64,000 nt of DNA from Aureispira anguillae (lineage in GTDB: Bacteria; Bacteroidota; Bacteroidia; Chitinophagales; Saprospiraceae). This document shows, one piece after another, positions 53,505 through 61,974 of this stretch. The first letter of the stretch is position 1. Each line of letters begins with the position of its first letter. The DNA lies in NCBI RefSeq assembly GCF_026000115.1, contig NZ_AP026867.1, positions 589,501-653,500 of the forward strand, in the 5' to 3' direction. Under the pieces are notes generated by a model. It ran no database searches and had not been told where the DNA came from. It saw nothing but the letters and a program-made list of their open reading frames with translations. The position numbers and the translations under genes were made by a program.

Positions 53505-54977
53505 ATGGCTTCCTCCCTCGAATTGTTTGACTTGATTAAATCATTAACCAGTAATGAAAAACGACATTTTAGATTAATAACAGAACTGCAAACAGGCAAA
53601 AAAAACTATGTCCGTTTATTTGAAGAGATGGATGCCTTGGAGGTCTATGATAAGCAGCAGATCATTGCTAATTTGAAAGGAAATAAGTTTCTGAAAAGTC
53701 TGCACGTAACCGAAAATTATCTCTATCAGCGCATTATGGAAAGTTTGAGAACGTTTCATGCCGATCATTCCATCATGGCAAAATTGTACAACCTACTCTT
53801 AGATGCCGAACTGCTAAAAGGAAGGGGCTTTTACAAGTTGTCTATGGAGGTCTTGAATAGAGCTGAGAAGTTGGCAAAAAAGCAGTGCAAAAACTTTCTA
53901 CTGACAGAAATTGCCACTAAAAAAATAGAACTTATTGTAGCAGATAGGGATCGATTATTGTTGGAGCAATTGGACGACTTGTATCAACAAACTCAACAGA
54001 ACCATCAGCAATTAGAAGAAGAAAGCCTTTATATTTATTGGCACCATTGGTTTGTCTTGGTATTTAGGAAATGGCGGCACCCCAAAGATCCTCAAATTAT
54101 ACAAAGAATGGAAGAAGGCTATCAATTGGTTCAAGCTCAAGCTTTTCCTCAGCATGGAACCTTCCAAGCTCAATATTATTATTATACCATACAGAGTATT
54201 TATTGGCAAATAAAAAAGGATTACCTAAAAGGAAATGCTATTCATGCCAAAATATTGGAGGTGTGGGAAGCCAACCCTAGCATTATCAAAGAAAAGTTAT
54301 CGGTTTATATGGCTCGTTTGGCAAACTATATCAACAATAGCCTTACTTGTCAAAAGTATGAATTGGTAGCTGTTTTGATCCAAAAAATGGAAGGACTAAA
54401 AACGACAAGTTTTGATGAAGCAGGGGAGCAATTTCAGAATGTTTATTTTTATAAGCAATTGTATTATTTAAATGCCAAACAGTTGGAGGCTGCTAAGGAT
54501 TTGATTCCCTTAATTGAAAAGGGAGTGAAAAAATATGCAGCCAAAGTTAATCCTGCTCGAAAATTAGCCTTGTATTATAACTCAACAACAACACTTTTTT
54601 TGCTGGAAGAATATGAGGCTGCTGCTGATTGGTTGAACAAAATTTTGGCTGTGTCCAGAACCCATGAACCCAGAAAAGATGTACAGCGATTTGCCCGTAT
54701 TTTGCAATTGGCAATTTATTATAAATTATCTAGTTATGAGGTCTTAGAATATTTGTTTAGAAGCGTTTATCGAAACAAAAAACTAAAAGCCGAAATGCAT
54801 GAATTTGAAAAAATTGTGCTGCATTATTTTAAGCAACTCATAAAGGGAACCGTCAGTGAAAAAGCCGAAAAAACACTTTTTCAAGCATTTAGAGCAGCAT
54901 TAGAAAACCTAAGTCCTATAGAAAAGAATACAACGGGATTTGAAGAATTTTTAATTTGGGTAAATGCAATGTGTTGA
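53505..54977 (+). CDS. Large helical protein, paralogous in style to the one at 1112-2641
   Basis: The protein has 490 residues, with no signal peptide or membrane segment. It begins 'SSLELFDLIKSLTSNEKRHF' and continues with helical repeats ('KGRGFYKLSMEVLNRAEKLA', 'EEYEAAADWLNKILAVSRTH') that look TPR-like. It shares overall length, helical make-up and N-terminal pattern with the 509-residue protein at the left. It may be a scaffold in a lineage-specific family. It converges with rsgA with a gap of only 9 bases and no terminator hairpin. Confidence 0.78.
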   Translation: MASSLELFDLIKSLTSNEKRHFRLITELQTGKKNYVRLFEEMDALEVYDKQQIIANLKGNKFLKSLHVTENYLYQRIMESLRTFHADHSIMAKLYNLLLDAELLKGRGFYKLSMEVLNRAEKLAKKQCKNFLLTEIATKKIELIVADRDRLLLEQLDDLYQQTQQNHQQLEEESLYIYWHHWFVLVFRKWRHPKDPQIIQRMEEGYQLVQAQAFPQHGTFQAQYYYYTIQSIYWQIKKDYLKGNAIHAKILEVWEANPSIIKEKLSVYMARLANYINNSLTCQKYELVAVLIQKMEGLKTTSFDEAGEQFQNVYFYKQLYYLNAKQLEAAKDLIPLIEKGVKKYAAKVNPARKLALYYNSTTTLFLLEEYEAAADWLNKILAVSRTHEPRKDVQRFARILQLAIYYKLSSYEVLEYLFRSVYRNKKLKAEMHEFEKIVLHYFKQLIKGTVSEKAEKTLFQAFRAALENLSPIEKNTTGFEEFLIWVNAMC

Positions 54978-56598: not shown

Positions 56599-58956
56599 AT
56601 GCAAAAGCAGACTGTTTACGTATTCTTTTCGGAAGCGAACTCAATTGAGGCGAACCAAATTATAACAGATTTAAAGAAGGCAAATGTCAATTGTATTATT
56701 GATTTGCCAACGGTCGAGAAGGTAGAACACATAACTCAAAATAAAGAGGCAACAGGACTTCTTCTTGTAAGTGACAATTATTTAAAATCTATTGATGAAA
56801 CACGACATTTGGATCAATTGTTAGCGGAAGAATACACCGACCAGTTAATTCCTATTTTAACACACGGTCGCCGCCCCAAAAATGGTGCTGTTGACCAAGT
56901 AGAAGTTTATCCTACCCAGATCCAAACGCTTAATAACGTCATGTATTATCGTGATTTTTGGTATGAGGAATGGATTGCTTTGCGCAAAAAATCTAAAAAT
57001 GCGACGAGTGAAGAAAGAGAGGAGTTAGACGAACTAAAAGAGATTGCTAAAAAAATGTCTGTTGGTAGTATTTCTACTTTCATTCGAAAGATCAATAATA
57101 TTCCCACTGTTGATTGGGATGATTTCTGTGCAAATGATTATCAAGTGTTTTTTGATAAAACGGGATTGGACAAAACTGCTTTGAAAGAACAGGAAGAAAA
57201 TGTCGTTGAAAATGAGTTTGTTGATGAAACGCCTCAGGAAGAAATAAGCAAAGAGTTGGAAACACCTACTGTTGAACAAGAGGAAGTGGTTGTAGCAGCT
57301 GCGCCTATCGTAGGAACGGAAGAAAACAAAGAAGAGCAAGAAGAAATACCTGCTATAGAGGAAGAAATTGATGAGGAAATTCTTGAAGAAATTGAAGAAG
57401 AAGTAACCGCTTTTGTAGAGGAAACGAATACTATTGAAGAAGAACTATCTGAAGAAGAAGAACCTTTAGAATTGGAAGAAGCTGTTGTTGCTGAAATGTT
57501 AGAAGAAGTGGTCGAGCAGGAAGAAGAACAAGAGGCAATAGTGGAGCAAGAGGAAGAGGCTCCTTTTAGTTTGGAGGGACTAGAGAATTTAGAGGAAGTA
57601 GATGCAGATGCCATTTTGGAACAATATACCATTGATGAAGTAGAAGATGTTGACATCTTGTTTCATATTGCAGAGAGCCAAGCAGAGGACGGTGAGTTTG
57701 ATGAAGCTAGACATTGTTACGAACGTATTCTAAAAATAGATCCTTATAATGGACGTGCTTTGATTTGGTTGGCTCGTTTGCTGACTCGTCATTATGAGGA
57801 TGAAATCTTAGAAGCGGCGCAGATGTATCGCAAAGCAATTATGGTGAACGATGAAAATGCAGGGTTGTATTATGAATATGCTTTGGTTCAAAAAGATCAT
57901 TTTCAGGCTTATAATAAGGCGAGCGACTCTTTTAGAGAGGCTTTGTTGATTGACTCTTCTTACGAAGATGCTTATTTGGGCTTGGCGCAATGCCAGCGAG
58001 AAATGGGCATGCTTGACCAAGCAAAAGCAAATTATCTGCAAGCCTGTGTTTTGGACGCTCCTAGATTTCAAACCACAGAAAACGACGACTATTTTGGTGT
58101 GATTCGAATGGTAGAAGCAGTCGAAGAAGAGGAAATTGACGCTACGGTCTTAGAGGAGCGTGAATATCCTGCTAGCCCAAATGCCAATACTGTTGTTATG
58201 GTAACAGGAGCAAGCTCAGGTATAGGTCGAGCTATTGCTGGTCAGTTTATTATGGGAGGGTATAAGGTCATTATAACAGGACGTAGAACCGAACGATTGA
58301 ATGATTTTAAAGAGATGATGGAAGAGCATTTGGAAGAAGCGCAAATTCATACCTTATCGTTTGATGTGGGCGATTTGGATGCTGTCAAAGCGGCTGTGGA
58401 TAGCCTTCCTGAAGGTTGGGCAGATATTGACATTTTGATTAATAATGCAGGTCTAGCAAAAGGTTTTGCTCCTGTGCATGAGGGGAATGTAGAGCATTGG
58501 GAAACAATGATTGATACCAATATCAAAGGCTTGTTGTACATGAGTAGAGTCATAACCCCTGAAATGGTAAAACGCCAAAAAGGGCATGTGATTAATTTAG
58601 GTTCTGTAGCTGGCACACAAGTATATGCAGGTGGCGGCGTTTATTGTGCGACCAAAGCGGCTGTTGATTCATTGACTCGTTCTATGCGTTTGGATTTATA
58701 CGAGCACAACATCAAGGTAACTTCTGTTAGCCCAGGGCATGTTGATGCTACAGAATTTGCTACTGTACGTTATGAGGATAGCGACAAAGCAAAAATTTAT
58801 GAAGATTTCAAACCACTATCAGCAAAAGACGTTGCCGATACAGTTTATTATATAGCCACTCGTCCTGAGCATGTTAATATTCAAGATGTTTTGATGTTTG
58901 GAACACAACAAGCCTCTGTTAGAGATGTTAATAGAAGCGGTCGCAAAGAAGACTAA
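56599..58956 (+). CDS. TIR-like - acidic linker - TPR - short-chain dehydrogenase fusion
   Basis: The protein has 785 residues and no signal peptide. Residues 1-170 look like a TIR domain: 'QTVYVFFSEANSIEANQIIT', 'ATGLLLVSDNYLKSIDETRH', 'LAEEYTDQLIPILTHGRRPK'. Residues about 205-345 are a Glu-rich, probably disordered linker. TPR repeats span about 350-490. From about 530 a complete classical SDR follows: cofactor motif TGASSGIGRAIA (536 on), NNAG, and the catalytic Ser669, Tyr682 and Lys686. TIR domains in bacteria often cleave NAD+ and SDRs bind NAD(P), so a nicotinamide-linked role is possible. A terminator lies at 58983. I know of no named protein with this order. Confidence 0.85.
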   Translation: MQKQTVYVFFSEANSIEANQIITDLKKANVNCIIDLPTVEKVEHITQNKEATGLLLVSDNYLKSIDETRHLDQLLAEEYTDQLIPILTHGRRPKNGAVDQVEVYPTQIQTLNNVMYYRDFWYEEWIALRKKSKNATSEEREELDELKEIAKKMSVGSISTFIRKINNIPTVDWDDFCANDYQVFFDKTGLDKTALKEQEENVVENEFVDETPQEEISKELETPTVEQEEVVVAAAPIVGTEENKEEQEEIPAIEEEIDEEILEEIEEEVTAFVEETNTIEEELSEEEEPLELEEAVVAEMLEEVVEQEEEQEAIVEQEEEAPFSLEGLENLEEVDADAILEQYTIDEVEDVDILFHIAESQAEDGEFDEARHCYERILKIDPYNGRALIWLARLLTRHYEDEILEAAQMYRKAIMVNDENAGLYYEYALVQKDHFQAYNKASDSFREALLIDSSYEDAYLGLAQCQREMGMLDQAKANYLQACVLDAPRFQTTENDDYFGVIRMVEAVEEEEIDATVLEEREYPASPNANTVVMVTGASSGIGRAIAGQFIMGGYKVIITGRRTERLNDFKEMMEEHLEEAQIHTLSFDVGDLDAVKAAVDSLPEGWADIDILINNAGLAKGFAPVHEGNVEHWETMIDTNIKGLLYMSRVITPEMVKRQKGHVINLGSVAGTQVYAGGGVYCATKAAVDSLTRSMRLDLYEHNIKVTSVSPGHVDATEFATVRYEDSDKAKIYEDFKPLSAKDVADTVYYIATRPEHVNIQDVLMFGTQQASVRDVNRSGRKED

Positions 58957-59346: not shown

Positions 59347-60411
59347 ATGAAACGTATGAATTTTAAATTAATCCTAAGTGCTTTATTGGTGACAAATGTC
59401 TGGATGACTGCAAAAGCTCAGTTACCTGTTGTACAAGCAAAAGGAGGGGAAGGAATTGCTATTGATTGGAATACAATGGCAGAAAAAGGAACGGCAGAAG
59501 ATGGACTTGGTTTTTTTCATAATCCTTGTGCGCAAGGAACAACTCCTATGCATGTATCTTCTACACTCAAGGGACAAGGATCAAAAACGTATAAGCTGCA
59601 AAATTTAGCAGATGATAACCCAATGACGGCTTGGGTAGAAGGGGTCTTGGGCTATGGAATAGGAGAGTGGTTCGAAGTCAAAGCAATTACGGTCAATAGG
59701 ATTTATAATGGCTATCAATCCAGTGCTAAAAATTGGAAAGATAATTCTAGAGTAAAACGATTTAAGGTCTATTTAGATGGTGCTCCAATTTGTTTTTTGG
59801 ATTTAACGGATGAAATGGGAGCACAGCATTTTGAATTGCCTCATCGTCCTAATTGGGAGACAAAAGCGAATTTTAAATTTGAAATCGTGGAAGTGTACAA
59901 AGGAGATAAATGGGACGATGTTTGCATTTCTCATGTTGATCATGTGGCTTGTTGTTTTGCCCCAACTACCCAGATTAGTTTAGCGAACAATTGGAGTCAA
60001 GCGATTAATACAATAAAAGAAGGAACACCCTTGTTGGGGATAGATTTGAATACTGCCACGACCTTTGAGTCTAATGTTCAGCTGACAACCAATCAACGCC
60101 ATTTAACCTTACTAGAAGTCGCAACAGCATCTCATGAGATTGCTATTACCCCAGACCATCCGCTTTATATTGAAGGGCGTGGCTTTATTTCCTTGGGGCA
60201 GTTGATGGTAGATCAAAATTATAAGGATTGGGATGCATTAGAACAGGCTGAACTTAACGTTATGGTTTATGACAAAGCGTTGGGAAAAACAAAATTTGAA
60301 AAAATTAATACCATCAAAAAAATAGAGGGTGATTTTGATACCTATACCATTCTTTCTATTGCTAAAGGAAGCACCTATATTGCCAATGGTTTTGTTAATA
60401 AAGTTTATTGA
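59347..60411 (+). CDS. Secreted protein: NADase-type glycan-binding-like domain plus terminal Hint domain
   Basis: The protein has 354 residues. A signal peptide (about 1-24, ending TAKAQ) is followed by a discoidin-like region matching the NADase-type glycan-binding domain: 'VSSTLKGQGSKTYKLQNLAD', 'TAWVEGVLGYGIGEWF', 'NGYQSSAKNWKDNSRVKRF', 'DKWDDVCISH'. From Cys202/Cys203 a Hint domain follows ('CFAPTTQISLANNW', 'ITPDHPLYIEGRG' with Thr268 and His271), ending 'YIANGFVNKVY' with no C-terminal extein. Hint domains self-cleave at the N-terminal Cys, so the binding domain could be released or attached to a nucleophile. The next gene encodes a secreted nuclease. Confidence 0.8.
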   Translation: MKRMNFKLILSALLVTNVWMTAKAQLPVVQAKGGEGIAIDWNTMAEKGTAEDGLGFFHNPCAQGTTPMHVSSTLKGQGSKTYKLQNLADDNPMTAWVEGVLGYGIGEWFEVKAITVNRIYNGYQSSAKNWKDNSRVKRFKVYLDGAPICFLDLTDEMGAQHFELPHRPNWETKANFKFEIVEVYKGDKWDDVCISHVDHVACCFAPTTQISLANNWSQAINTIKEGTPLLGIDLNTATTFESNVQLTTNQRHLTLLEVATASHEIAITPDHPLYIEGRGFISLGQLMVDQNYKDWDALEQAELNVMVYDKALGKTKFEKINTIKKIEGDFDTYTILSIAKGSTYIANGFVNKVY

Positions 60412-60561: not shown

Positions 60562-61974
60562 ATGAAAATACTAATACTTGTTTTAGCTTTATTGTTGCAA
60601 ATTTCGAGCACAGCACAAATTCCTGCTTATTATAACAATGTGAACCTGAATGCAACAGGGCAAACGTTAAAAAATAACTTAGCAAACAAGGTCGTCCACT
60701 CTCAAACCAATACGATTTCTTATACTCCTGGTGTTTGGAATGCCTTGAAACAAACAGATTTAGATCCAACCAATACTGCTAATGTTATTTTAATTTATGG
60801 ATACAGTAATACCGATGGAAATTCAACCACGGATCGAACCCGCTCAAAATATAGCAATGGAGGAGGTAGCACCGACTGGAATAGAGAACATGTATATCCT
60901 AAATCTTTGGGTACTCCCAATCTAGGAAGTTCTGGACCTGGGGCAGATCCCCATCACATTCGTTCTGCGGATGTAAATAGAAATGCTTCTCGTGGTAGTA
61001 GAAAATTTGCTAGTGGATCAGGAAATTCTAAAATAACAGCGCAAGGCTTTTGGTATCCTGGGGATGAATTTAAGGGCGATGTTGCTAGGATGATTATGTA
61101 CATGTATCTTAGATACGGAAGCCGTTGTTTGCCCAAAAATGTAGGGATTGGAAGTACGGTGTCCAATGATCCCAATATGCTCCAATTATTTTTGCAATGG
61201 AATGTAGATGACCCCGTTTCTACCCTCGAATTACAACGCAATGGAATTATAGAAAACTTGCAAGGAAACAGAAATCCTTTTATTGATAATCCAGCTTTTG
61301 CGACTCAAATTTGGGGTGGACAACAAGCAGAAGATCGTTTTGGGAATGGTGGAGGGACTTCTCCTACAACAATTGATGTGAATCTAAGGCTTACCTTCGA
61401 TAATTATCCAGAAGAAACGAGTTGGGAAATTACCAATAGTTCCAATCAAGTTGTTTATTCGGGCGGCAATTATGGCAATCAGGCAGATGGCTCAACCATC
61501 AACATCGCCAAAACATTAAGCTCTGGTTGTTATTACTTGACGATTAGAGATAGTTATGGAGATGGCATGTGCTGTTCTTATGGAAATGGGTCTTTTTTGT
61601 TTACCAATACTTCTACTGGAAATACGATTACTTCGGGTGGTTCATTTCAGACAGCAGATACCAAGGCGTTTTGCTTAGGTGGTGGAGCAGCAAGAAACAA
61701 TAGCAATACCCTAAGGGAAACAAGGGAGGCAGAGTTGGTTAACGATGAAGGGGCAACACTGGCTATTTATCCAAATCCAGTGCATGAGGTGCTTTATATG
61801 AAGTTGGGAACCCAAGCAGCAACATTCGAGCTGTTGAACCAAGTAGGGCAAATCGTTGATCGTGGGACGGTAATCAATCAAAGGGTGCCTGTAGAAGGTC
61901 TGGCAAAGGGATTGTATTGGATTCGTATCCAAATTGGAGAAGAGAAAATTGTAAAAAAGTTTATTAAAGCCTAA
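60562..61974 (+). CDS. Secreted endonuclease I family protein with T9SS sorting domain
   Basis: The protein has 470 residues. A signal peptide (about 1-19, ending STAQ) is followed by an EndI nuclease domain (about 20-265): 'NREHVYPKSLG' (His110), 'GADPHHIRSADVNRNASRGS' (Asp129, His131, His132). A beta domain ('YLTIRDSYGDGMCCSYGNGS') and a T9SS type A sorting domain ('LAIYPNPVHEVLYMKLG' to the end) complete it. It probably degrades extracellular DNA or RNA for nutrients or defence and is displayed at the cell surface. A terminator follows at 61985. Confidence 0.92.
   Translation: MKILILVLALLLQISSTAQIPAYYNNVNLNATGQTLKNNLANKVVHSQTNTISYTPGVWNALKQTDLDPTNTANVILIYGYSNTDGNSTTDRTRSKYSNGGGSTDWNREHVYPKSLGTPNLGSSGPGADPHHIRSADVNRNASRGSRKFASGSGNSKITAQGFWYPGDEFKGDVARMIMYMYLRYGSRCLPKNVGIGSTVSNDPNMLQLFLQWNVDDPVSTLELQRNGIIENLQGNRNPFIDNPAFATQIWGGQQAEDRFGNGGGTSPTTIDVNLRLTFDNYPEETSWEITNSSNQVVYSGGNYGNQADGSTINIAKTLSSGCYYLTIRDSYGDGMCCSYGNGSFLFTNTSTGNTITSGGSFQTADTKAFCLGGGAARNNSNTLRETREAELVNDEGATLAIYPNPVHEVLYMKLGTQAATFELLNQVGQIVDRGTVINQRVPVEGLAKGLYWIRIQIGEEKIVKKFIKA

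Follow-up and report, generated by a model that had tools for sequence, protein, structure and literature searches.

In the portions of the literature cited here, bacterial TIR domains appear chiefly as NAD+-consuming enzymes of immunity or virulence, and the enzymatic members require a catalytic glutamate (PMC7282519 and PMC8635717, in the parts relied on). The cited part of PMC7282519 reports no NADase activity for the TIR domains of MyD88 and TLR4, and scaffold TIRs are reported in the corresponding part of PMC8635717 to work through cooperative assembly. Our literature search for a protein joining TIR, TPR and short-chain dehydrogenase (SDR) domains found no description of such a fusion. 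Here we describe one from Aureispira anguillae, in which a TIR domain that has lost its catalytic residue shares a chain with an SDR whose catalytic residues are intact.

The gene lies in a 64,000-nucleotide stretch of the A. anguillae chromosome (the window), where positions 56599–58956 of the plus strand form a single open reading frame of 785 residues; the opposite strand carries many stops across the same interval in the frame shown. In order, and all on the plus strand, the chain comprises a degenerate TIR domain with a C-terminal helical extension (residues 1–188; 56599–57162), a Glu-rich linker that is predicted to be disordered (residues ~196–333; 57184–57597), TPR-type helical repeats (residues ~336–498; 57604–58092) and a classical SDR (residues 530–785; 58186–58953). 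An earlier note on this DNA had proposed a 785-residue chain joining a TIR-like domain, a Glu-rich linker and TPRs, and the open reading frame, Pfam matches, model confidence and composition all bear this out. Several Pfam TPR models match residues 352–484 (E down to 1.3e-10), and the repeat block is modeled well, with pLDDT values of 87–96 from residue 351 to 500. In the linker the pLDDT falls below 50, 57 of the 138 residues are Glu, and Glu and Asp together make up 43%. In 54 fused proteins a median of 176 residues (86–377) separates the TIR match from the TPR match, with medians of 23% acidic and 5% basic residues, these lengths being upper bounds because some members (e.g., L057) have extra repeats before the TPR profile match. 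Nearly all complete fused chains match the family TPR profile, the exceptions being L045 and L189, in which TIR and SDR are present and the profile gave no match. Confidence in the full-length model is low (pLDDT 70.4, pTM 0.36) and the packing of the domains therefore cannot be read from it. The whole chain occurs once in the window's genome, other matches there being partial, to SDRs or TPR proteins at no more than 34% identity, and the closest named records are from Aureispira (66–76% identity over the best segments).

The descent of the N-terminus from a TIR domain is firm, and rests on family profiles, a structural model and bona fide TIRs that link the family to known ones. The window sequence alone scores 18.1 bits with TIR_2 (PF13676; residues 6–93, E 0.0039), short of the 28-bit cut-off, and this is its only N-terminal Pfam match. 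Among 59 homologous domains, 43 match TIR_2 at E ≤ 0.1 (best 6.7e-10), and TIR models are the sole Pfam models to match more than three of these 59 family members. When the 59-row profile was compared with the PDB, the MyD88 TIR came out best (E 2.5e-6), a match spanning only profile positions 6–93, followed by weak matches to TIRAP (from 0.016) and TRAM (from 0.05) with some designed proteins mixed among them; against 13 canonical TIRs from related genomes, hhalign gave the family profile a probability of 98.4%. An AlphaFold2 model of the N-terminal domain, built from 11 sequences, has a mean pLDDT of 92.6. Its leading Foldseek matches are plant RPS4 (4c6r; probability 1.00, TMq 0.51, E 1.3e-3) and the RPS4–RRS1 pair (4c6t; probability 1.00, TMq 0.48, E 1.6e-3), with BtpA, TIR-STING, RPP1, Cat1, SARM1 and MyD88 within the first 40 ranks; the E-values for this model all stay above 0.001, and from rank 3 onward receiver domains are mixed in with the TIRs. 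The earlier reading of residues ~1–170 as TIR-like is thus upheld by the family profiles and the model, the window sequence on its own staying below the cut-off.

The link to bona fide TIRs comes from nine proteins of the same bacterial family (L175–L183; frames of 292–1187 residues; L184 and L190 left out of the set), found by the family profile. Two of these were scanned and both match TIR_2 above the cut-off (8.4e-14 and 1.1e-15), and the set resembles the fused TIRs in its SxxCM motif and in a Trp of the helical extension. Among the 59 fused-family TIRs, W121 is present in every member, and L62, T106 and Y117 are structural positions kept in at least 90%. By eye, the linking proteins have a long C-terminal helical extension, several carry a hydrophobic stretch resembling a membrane anchor, and one is an LRR-GTPase of the ROCO type.

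The 59-row alignment contains the window once (L001), the split-form rows L068 and L076 and several chains truncated at contig ends (L046, L049, L061 and L072); L043 and L047 (same contigs as L059 and L067) and L066 (a near-copy of L065) were left out. Three DUF6909 proteins (L082, L083 and L087; Pfam family from L083) had entered through the first N-terminal searches and the iterated profile and were rejected as family members, as a profile built without them gave an hhalign probability of 0.1% and no hmmsearch match. The TIR-profile E-values of the iterated search are circular for its own members and were excluded as evidence. As canonical controls we tried 18 out of 25 available TIR_2 loci (L145–L157 and L165–L169), mostly the best-scoring; five of them, cut by contig ends, were dropped and 13 used.

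The column of the catalytic glutamate falls at residue 70, an assignment reached both by profile alignment and by alignment with the linking TIRs, and in the window this residue is a histidine (His70, codon CAT, 56806–56808). Glutamate occupies the column in 13/13 canonical TIRs, a figure that the choice of high-scoring controls favors, and in 9/9 linking TIRs, as against 2/59 members of the fused family. The earlier note had envisaged a system that senses, makes or consumes a nicotinamide cofactor alongside a redox step; production or consumption of this cofactor by the TIR is not supported, since the residue on which such chemistry would be expected to depend is absent from the window protein and from nearly all members of the fused family.

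The C-terminal half, described earlier as a complete SDR with Ser-Tyr-Lys and a cofactor motif, proved to be exactly that. Pfam adh_short covers residues 532–724 (E 2.7e-55), and Asn641 (58519–58521), Ser669 (58603–58605), Tyr682 and Lys686 (58642–58656) are invariant in all 97 aligned SDRs, comprising 56 fused, two split, 30 stand-alone and nine outgroup sequences. The three glycines of the TGxxxGxG cofactor motif are likewise found in 97/97, the window having G537-A-S-S-G-I-G543 (58207–58227) preceded by T536, which is kept as Thr here and replaced by Ser in 15/97. After the second strand the window carries G561-R562-R563 (58279–58287), in common with the solved structure 3asu, with R562 in 97/97 rows and R563 in 96/97. 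An arginine following the second SDR strand is typical of NADP(H) users, and the SDR half is probably NADP(H)-dependent. Among solved structures 3asu, which we take to be the E. coli YdfG/serine dehydrogenase, is the nearest relative (E 1.6e-65), followed by the sulfoacetaldehyde reductase 6ixj and yeast YMR226C (3rku). YdfG is also the best NCBIfam model (NF007829; 258.5 bits, residues 532–772), and as this score lies below the equivalog cut-off of 411 the SDR is of the same type as YdfG without being a certified YdfG. By homology to this YdfG/3-hydroxy-acid dehydrogenase family, a substrate of the 3-hydroxy-acid or malonic-semialdehyde type and a preference for NADP(H) would be expected. With the SDR catalytic residues kept and the TIR glutamate lost, the chain resembles one enzyme with a binding module, and not two enzymes sharing a cofactor.

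The fusion recurs well beyond the window, which confirms that the observation is more general than first seen: the earlier note had considered whether it might be unique to one sequence, and it is present in 49 of 86 genomes of the family and 20 of 40 genera. The rest of the 86 family genomes searched for the SDR comprise two in which the halves are neighboring genes, 30 whose SDR stands alone and five that lack an orthologue-level match, with nothing better than E 2.1e-28. Two loci cut by contig ends, L134 (G294) and L135 (G278), are counted as fused, the TIR end of each genome lying at another contig end, and one more fused genome (G296), found by the N-terminal search only, lies outside the 86. 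The 40 SDR-carrying genera, 25 of them represented by one genome, divide into 20 fused only, 19 stand-alone only and one split only, with none mixed; in the two genomes of the split genus (g28) the SDR gene comes immediately after a TIR-TPR gene, whose frames there have 550 and 566 residues. Six of nine genomes in the window's genus have a near-complete chain, the window counted, while G532 and G537 yield pieces and G284 no orthologue.

The SDR itself occurs throughout the phylum, with matches at E ≤ 1e-50 in 256/296 genomes of the order and 161/247 of the phylum, two samples that overlap. A search with the window's N-terminal domain returned 38/298 genomes of the order, all in the window's family. 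The 59-row profile finds the domain in 91/150 family genomes; in four (G123, G151, G566 and G596) the matches are linking TIRs, and the architecture was checked in a subset of the other 87. Among the matches listed, SDR frames in other families do not exceed 387 residues, bar two that we rejected as fusions: the 771-residue frame of G310 has 276 residues in the fetched stretch, and the 711-residue frame of G396 has no TIR or TPR match upstream.

The SDR tree of 97 rows places fused sequences on the first two branches within the family, L052 followed by a six-row Aureispira–Saprospira group (supports 97/87, 97/81 and 95/80), with stand-alone SDRs scattered deeper within the family part. The fused label requires nine changes on this tree, against 31.2 in shuffles, and well-supported branches force at least three, which excludes a single fused clade. 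We read these patterns as a fusion of early origin that was later lost more than once, repeated gain being a formal alternative. Both ends of the chain have been inherited together: across 53 fused rows TIR distances track SDR distances (r = 0.73, a value reached in 0 of 2000 permutations), the median identity being 26% for the TIR and 61% for the SDR. One family genome (G270; L129) has a stand-alone SDR that groups with outgroup sequences and was possibly acquired from outside. The median genome size is 5.6 Mb for fused genomes against 4.15 Mb, a difference confounded by ancestry.

The earlier note had seen no defense gene nearby, and this held true for the six window neighbors scanned with PADLOC, where only RsgA was matched, by seven weak matches (best E 3.9e-4); the fusion protein itself gave 0 matches. 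RsgA lies upstream of the fusion gene in divergent orientation, and adjoins the orthologue in the Aureispira-type loci L039, L040, L041, L046 and L185. Downstream in the window, the product of 59347–60408 (+) matches PF25302 (NAD glycohydrolase translocation F5/8 type C domain) at E 2.3e-33 and, weakly, the Hint domain; genes for its homologues adjoin the fusion gene in L039, L040 and L185. The gene at 60562–61971 (+) encodes an endonuclease I whose C-terminal tail is of the Por secretion-system kind. The 490-residue product of 53505–54974 (+) has no Pfam match, and a 74% identical protein occupies the same place in the Aureispira-type loci L040 and L185.

In 59/97 loci (30 fused, 27 stand-alone and two split) the SDR is preceded on its own strand by a redoxin (AhpC/TSA) lipoprotein-like gene, often adjoining it (median distance 0; e.g., L053:10246–11592, minus strand). 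A WCxxC motif is present in 55 of these 59 redoxin genes. The window's genome has its best match to this gene elsewhere (C1:5082778, 45%). Next come a 174-residue protein, in 36 loci, and, in 23 loci, an SDF dicarboxylate symporter. We rejected the redoxin gene as a functional clue to the N-terminal module: it lies upstream of fused and stand-alone SDRs alike, and the redoxin link therefore leaves the module unexplained. We found no neighbor common to the fused form across genera, and those seen with the fused form only are local. A thymidylate-kinase-like gene, identified by eye, adjoins the fusion gene in 14 loci, all of them in genus g5 (e.g., L133:7857–8474).

We propose that a degenerate, adaptor-like TIR and the TPRs assemble, dock or regulate a probably NADP(H)-dependent dehydrogenase, a reading to which we assign a probability of about one half and in which the assembly and the partners are what we infer. 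In this model, a TIR lacking the NADase glutamate, a disordered acidic tether and TPR repeats would have been added as one module to the N-terminus of an SDR of the phylum-wide YdfG type, probably early in the history of the Saprospiraceae. The TIR may bind other proteins or assemble with itself, much as MyD88 and other scaffold TIRs do; the MyD88-type profile match and the lost glutamate suggest such self-assembly or TIR–TIR binding. The TPRs would bind a partner, and TIR and TPRs together would cluster, localize or regulate the dehydrogenase. The SDR core is usually tetrameric in its family, and were it so here, each particle would bear TIR and TPR arms, four of each, held on acidic tethers that are flexible. 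A more specific form of this proposal can be put forward only tentatively: a non-enzymatic, MyD88-like TIR scaffold in bacterial metabolism, with cooperative TIR contacts assembling or docking a housekeeping dehydrogenase, the TPRs selecting the partner and the acidic tether spacing the parts. The rapid divergence of the TIR relative to the SDR means that a common binding surface is not evident, and the apparent loss of the module on several occasions indicates that it is dispensable to the SDR. From the first interpretation of this locus, the TIR-derived domain, the TPRs, the intact SDR, the conserved fusion and the lack of a defense gene among the neighbors scanned have all been retained, whereas the TIR that consumes or makes a cofactor (Glu in 2/59) is not supported.

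The main rival to assembly or docking is ligand-regulated control of the SDR, which we consider unlikely. Here the N-terminal module would be an autoinhibitory or ligand-sensing regulator acting without assembly or a partner, the degenerate TIR pocket binding a nucleotide and the linker and TPRs relaying the effect. TIR pockets bind NAD-type ligands by descent, and both the intact SDR and the adjacency of the parts in the split form suit such control. However, the 138-residue linker of the window, with its pLDDT below 50, would make a poor allosteric path, and long acidic stretches part the TIR and TPR matches across the family.

It is improbable that the protein acts in phage defense or cell suicide, with the TPRs or the TIR sensing infection and the SDR as effector. 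TIR and TPR domains are known from bacterial conflict systems (PMC7159879, in the part cited), but the chain is present in a single copy in the window's genome, is inherited jointly with its SDR and shows no genus of mixed state, while orthologue-level SDR matches extend to 161/247 genomes of the phylum and PADLOC found nothing for the protein and nothing convincing among the six neighbors.

We find it very improbable that the TIR still hydrolyzes or cyclizes NAD(P)+ by means of a catalytic acid at another position, in a chain that both consumes and uses a nicotinamide cofactor. Its TIR descent is firm and glutamates are scattered near the catalytic column (E67 in the window, 9/59 members at position 73 and 9/59 at position 77), yet positions 66–77 contain no acidic column conserved across the 59 fused-family members, with Glu in at most 9/59 at any of them, and the controls retain their glutamate (13/13 and 9/9). 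There is similarly little to recommend the fusion as a neutral accident with a functionless N-terminal module: fast TIR divergence and repeated loss would fit, but the fused frame persists in 49/86 genomes, W121 is kept in 59/59 and L62, T106 and Y117 in at least 90%, and the fold is predicted with confidence (pLDDT 92.6). That the N-terminus is a receiver-like (CheY-type) flavodoxin fold and not a TIR is barely credible, for although receiver domains appear in the Foldseek list (StyR at rank 3, E 8e-3) and the TIR E-values are modest, only TIR Pfam models match more than three of the 59 members, TIRs lead the PDB profile search, and nine linking proteins have the domain with its SxxCM motif and then the glutamate, the two that were scanned being TIR_2 above the cut-off.

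Returning to a degenerate TIR that helps to assemble, dock or regulate the dehydrogenase, the family is lineage-wide and lacks the catalytic residue, related TIRs of the same bacterial family possess it, and the loss accompanies fusion to a metabolic enzyme. This suggests the reuse of an immune-type part to place or control a metabolic enzyme. If the MyD88-like scaffold reading is true, scaffold TIRs would have arisen independently in bacteria out of catalytic TIRs. Setting linking TIRs, which keep the glutamate, against fused TIRs, and fused SDRs against stand-alone orthologues, makes possible a before-and-after comparison of how an enzymatic TIR might turn into a scaffold.

The solved SDRs 3asu and 3rku, of the YdfG/3-hydroxy-acid dehydrogenase type, have the same catalytic set as the window SDR; unlike the window protein, their chains of 248 and 287 residues are without TIR, linker or TPR. 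SARM1, the TIRs of plant TNL proteins and Thoeris ThsB have the TIR fold in common with the window domain, plant RPS4 being its top Foldseek match, whereas the catalytic glutamate that they require (PMC7282519 and PMC8635717, in the parts cited) is absent from it. Bacterial TIR_2 domains (PF13676), the linking proteins L175–L183 included, are homologous to the window TIR and have the SxxCM motif and the Trp of the helical extension in common with it; the linking proteins differ from the fused family in keeping the glutamate (9/9) and in having no SDR in the chain (0/9). As they keep it, the loss of activity in the fused TIRs would appear to be independent. The animal adaptors MyD88, TIRAP and TRAM resemble the window TIR in giving its best PDB profile matches (MyD88 at E 2.5e-6, the others weak), and MyD88 is reported in the cited part of PMC7282519 to show no NADase activity. 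These are immune adaptors with other partner domains, whereas the window TIR is tied to TPRs and a dehydrogenase.
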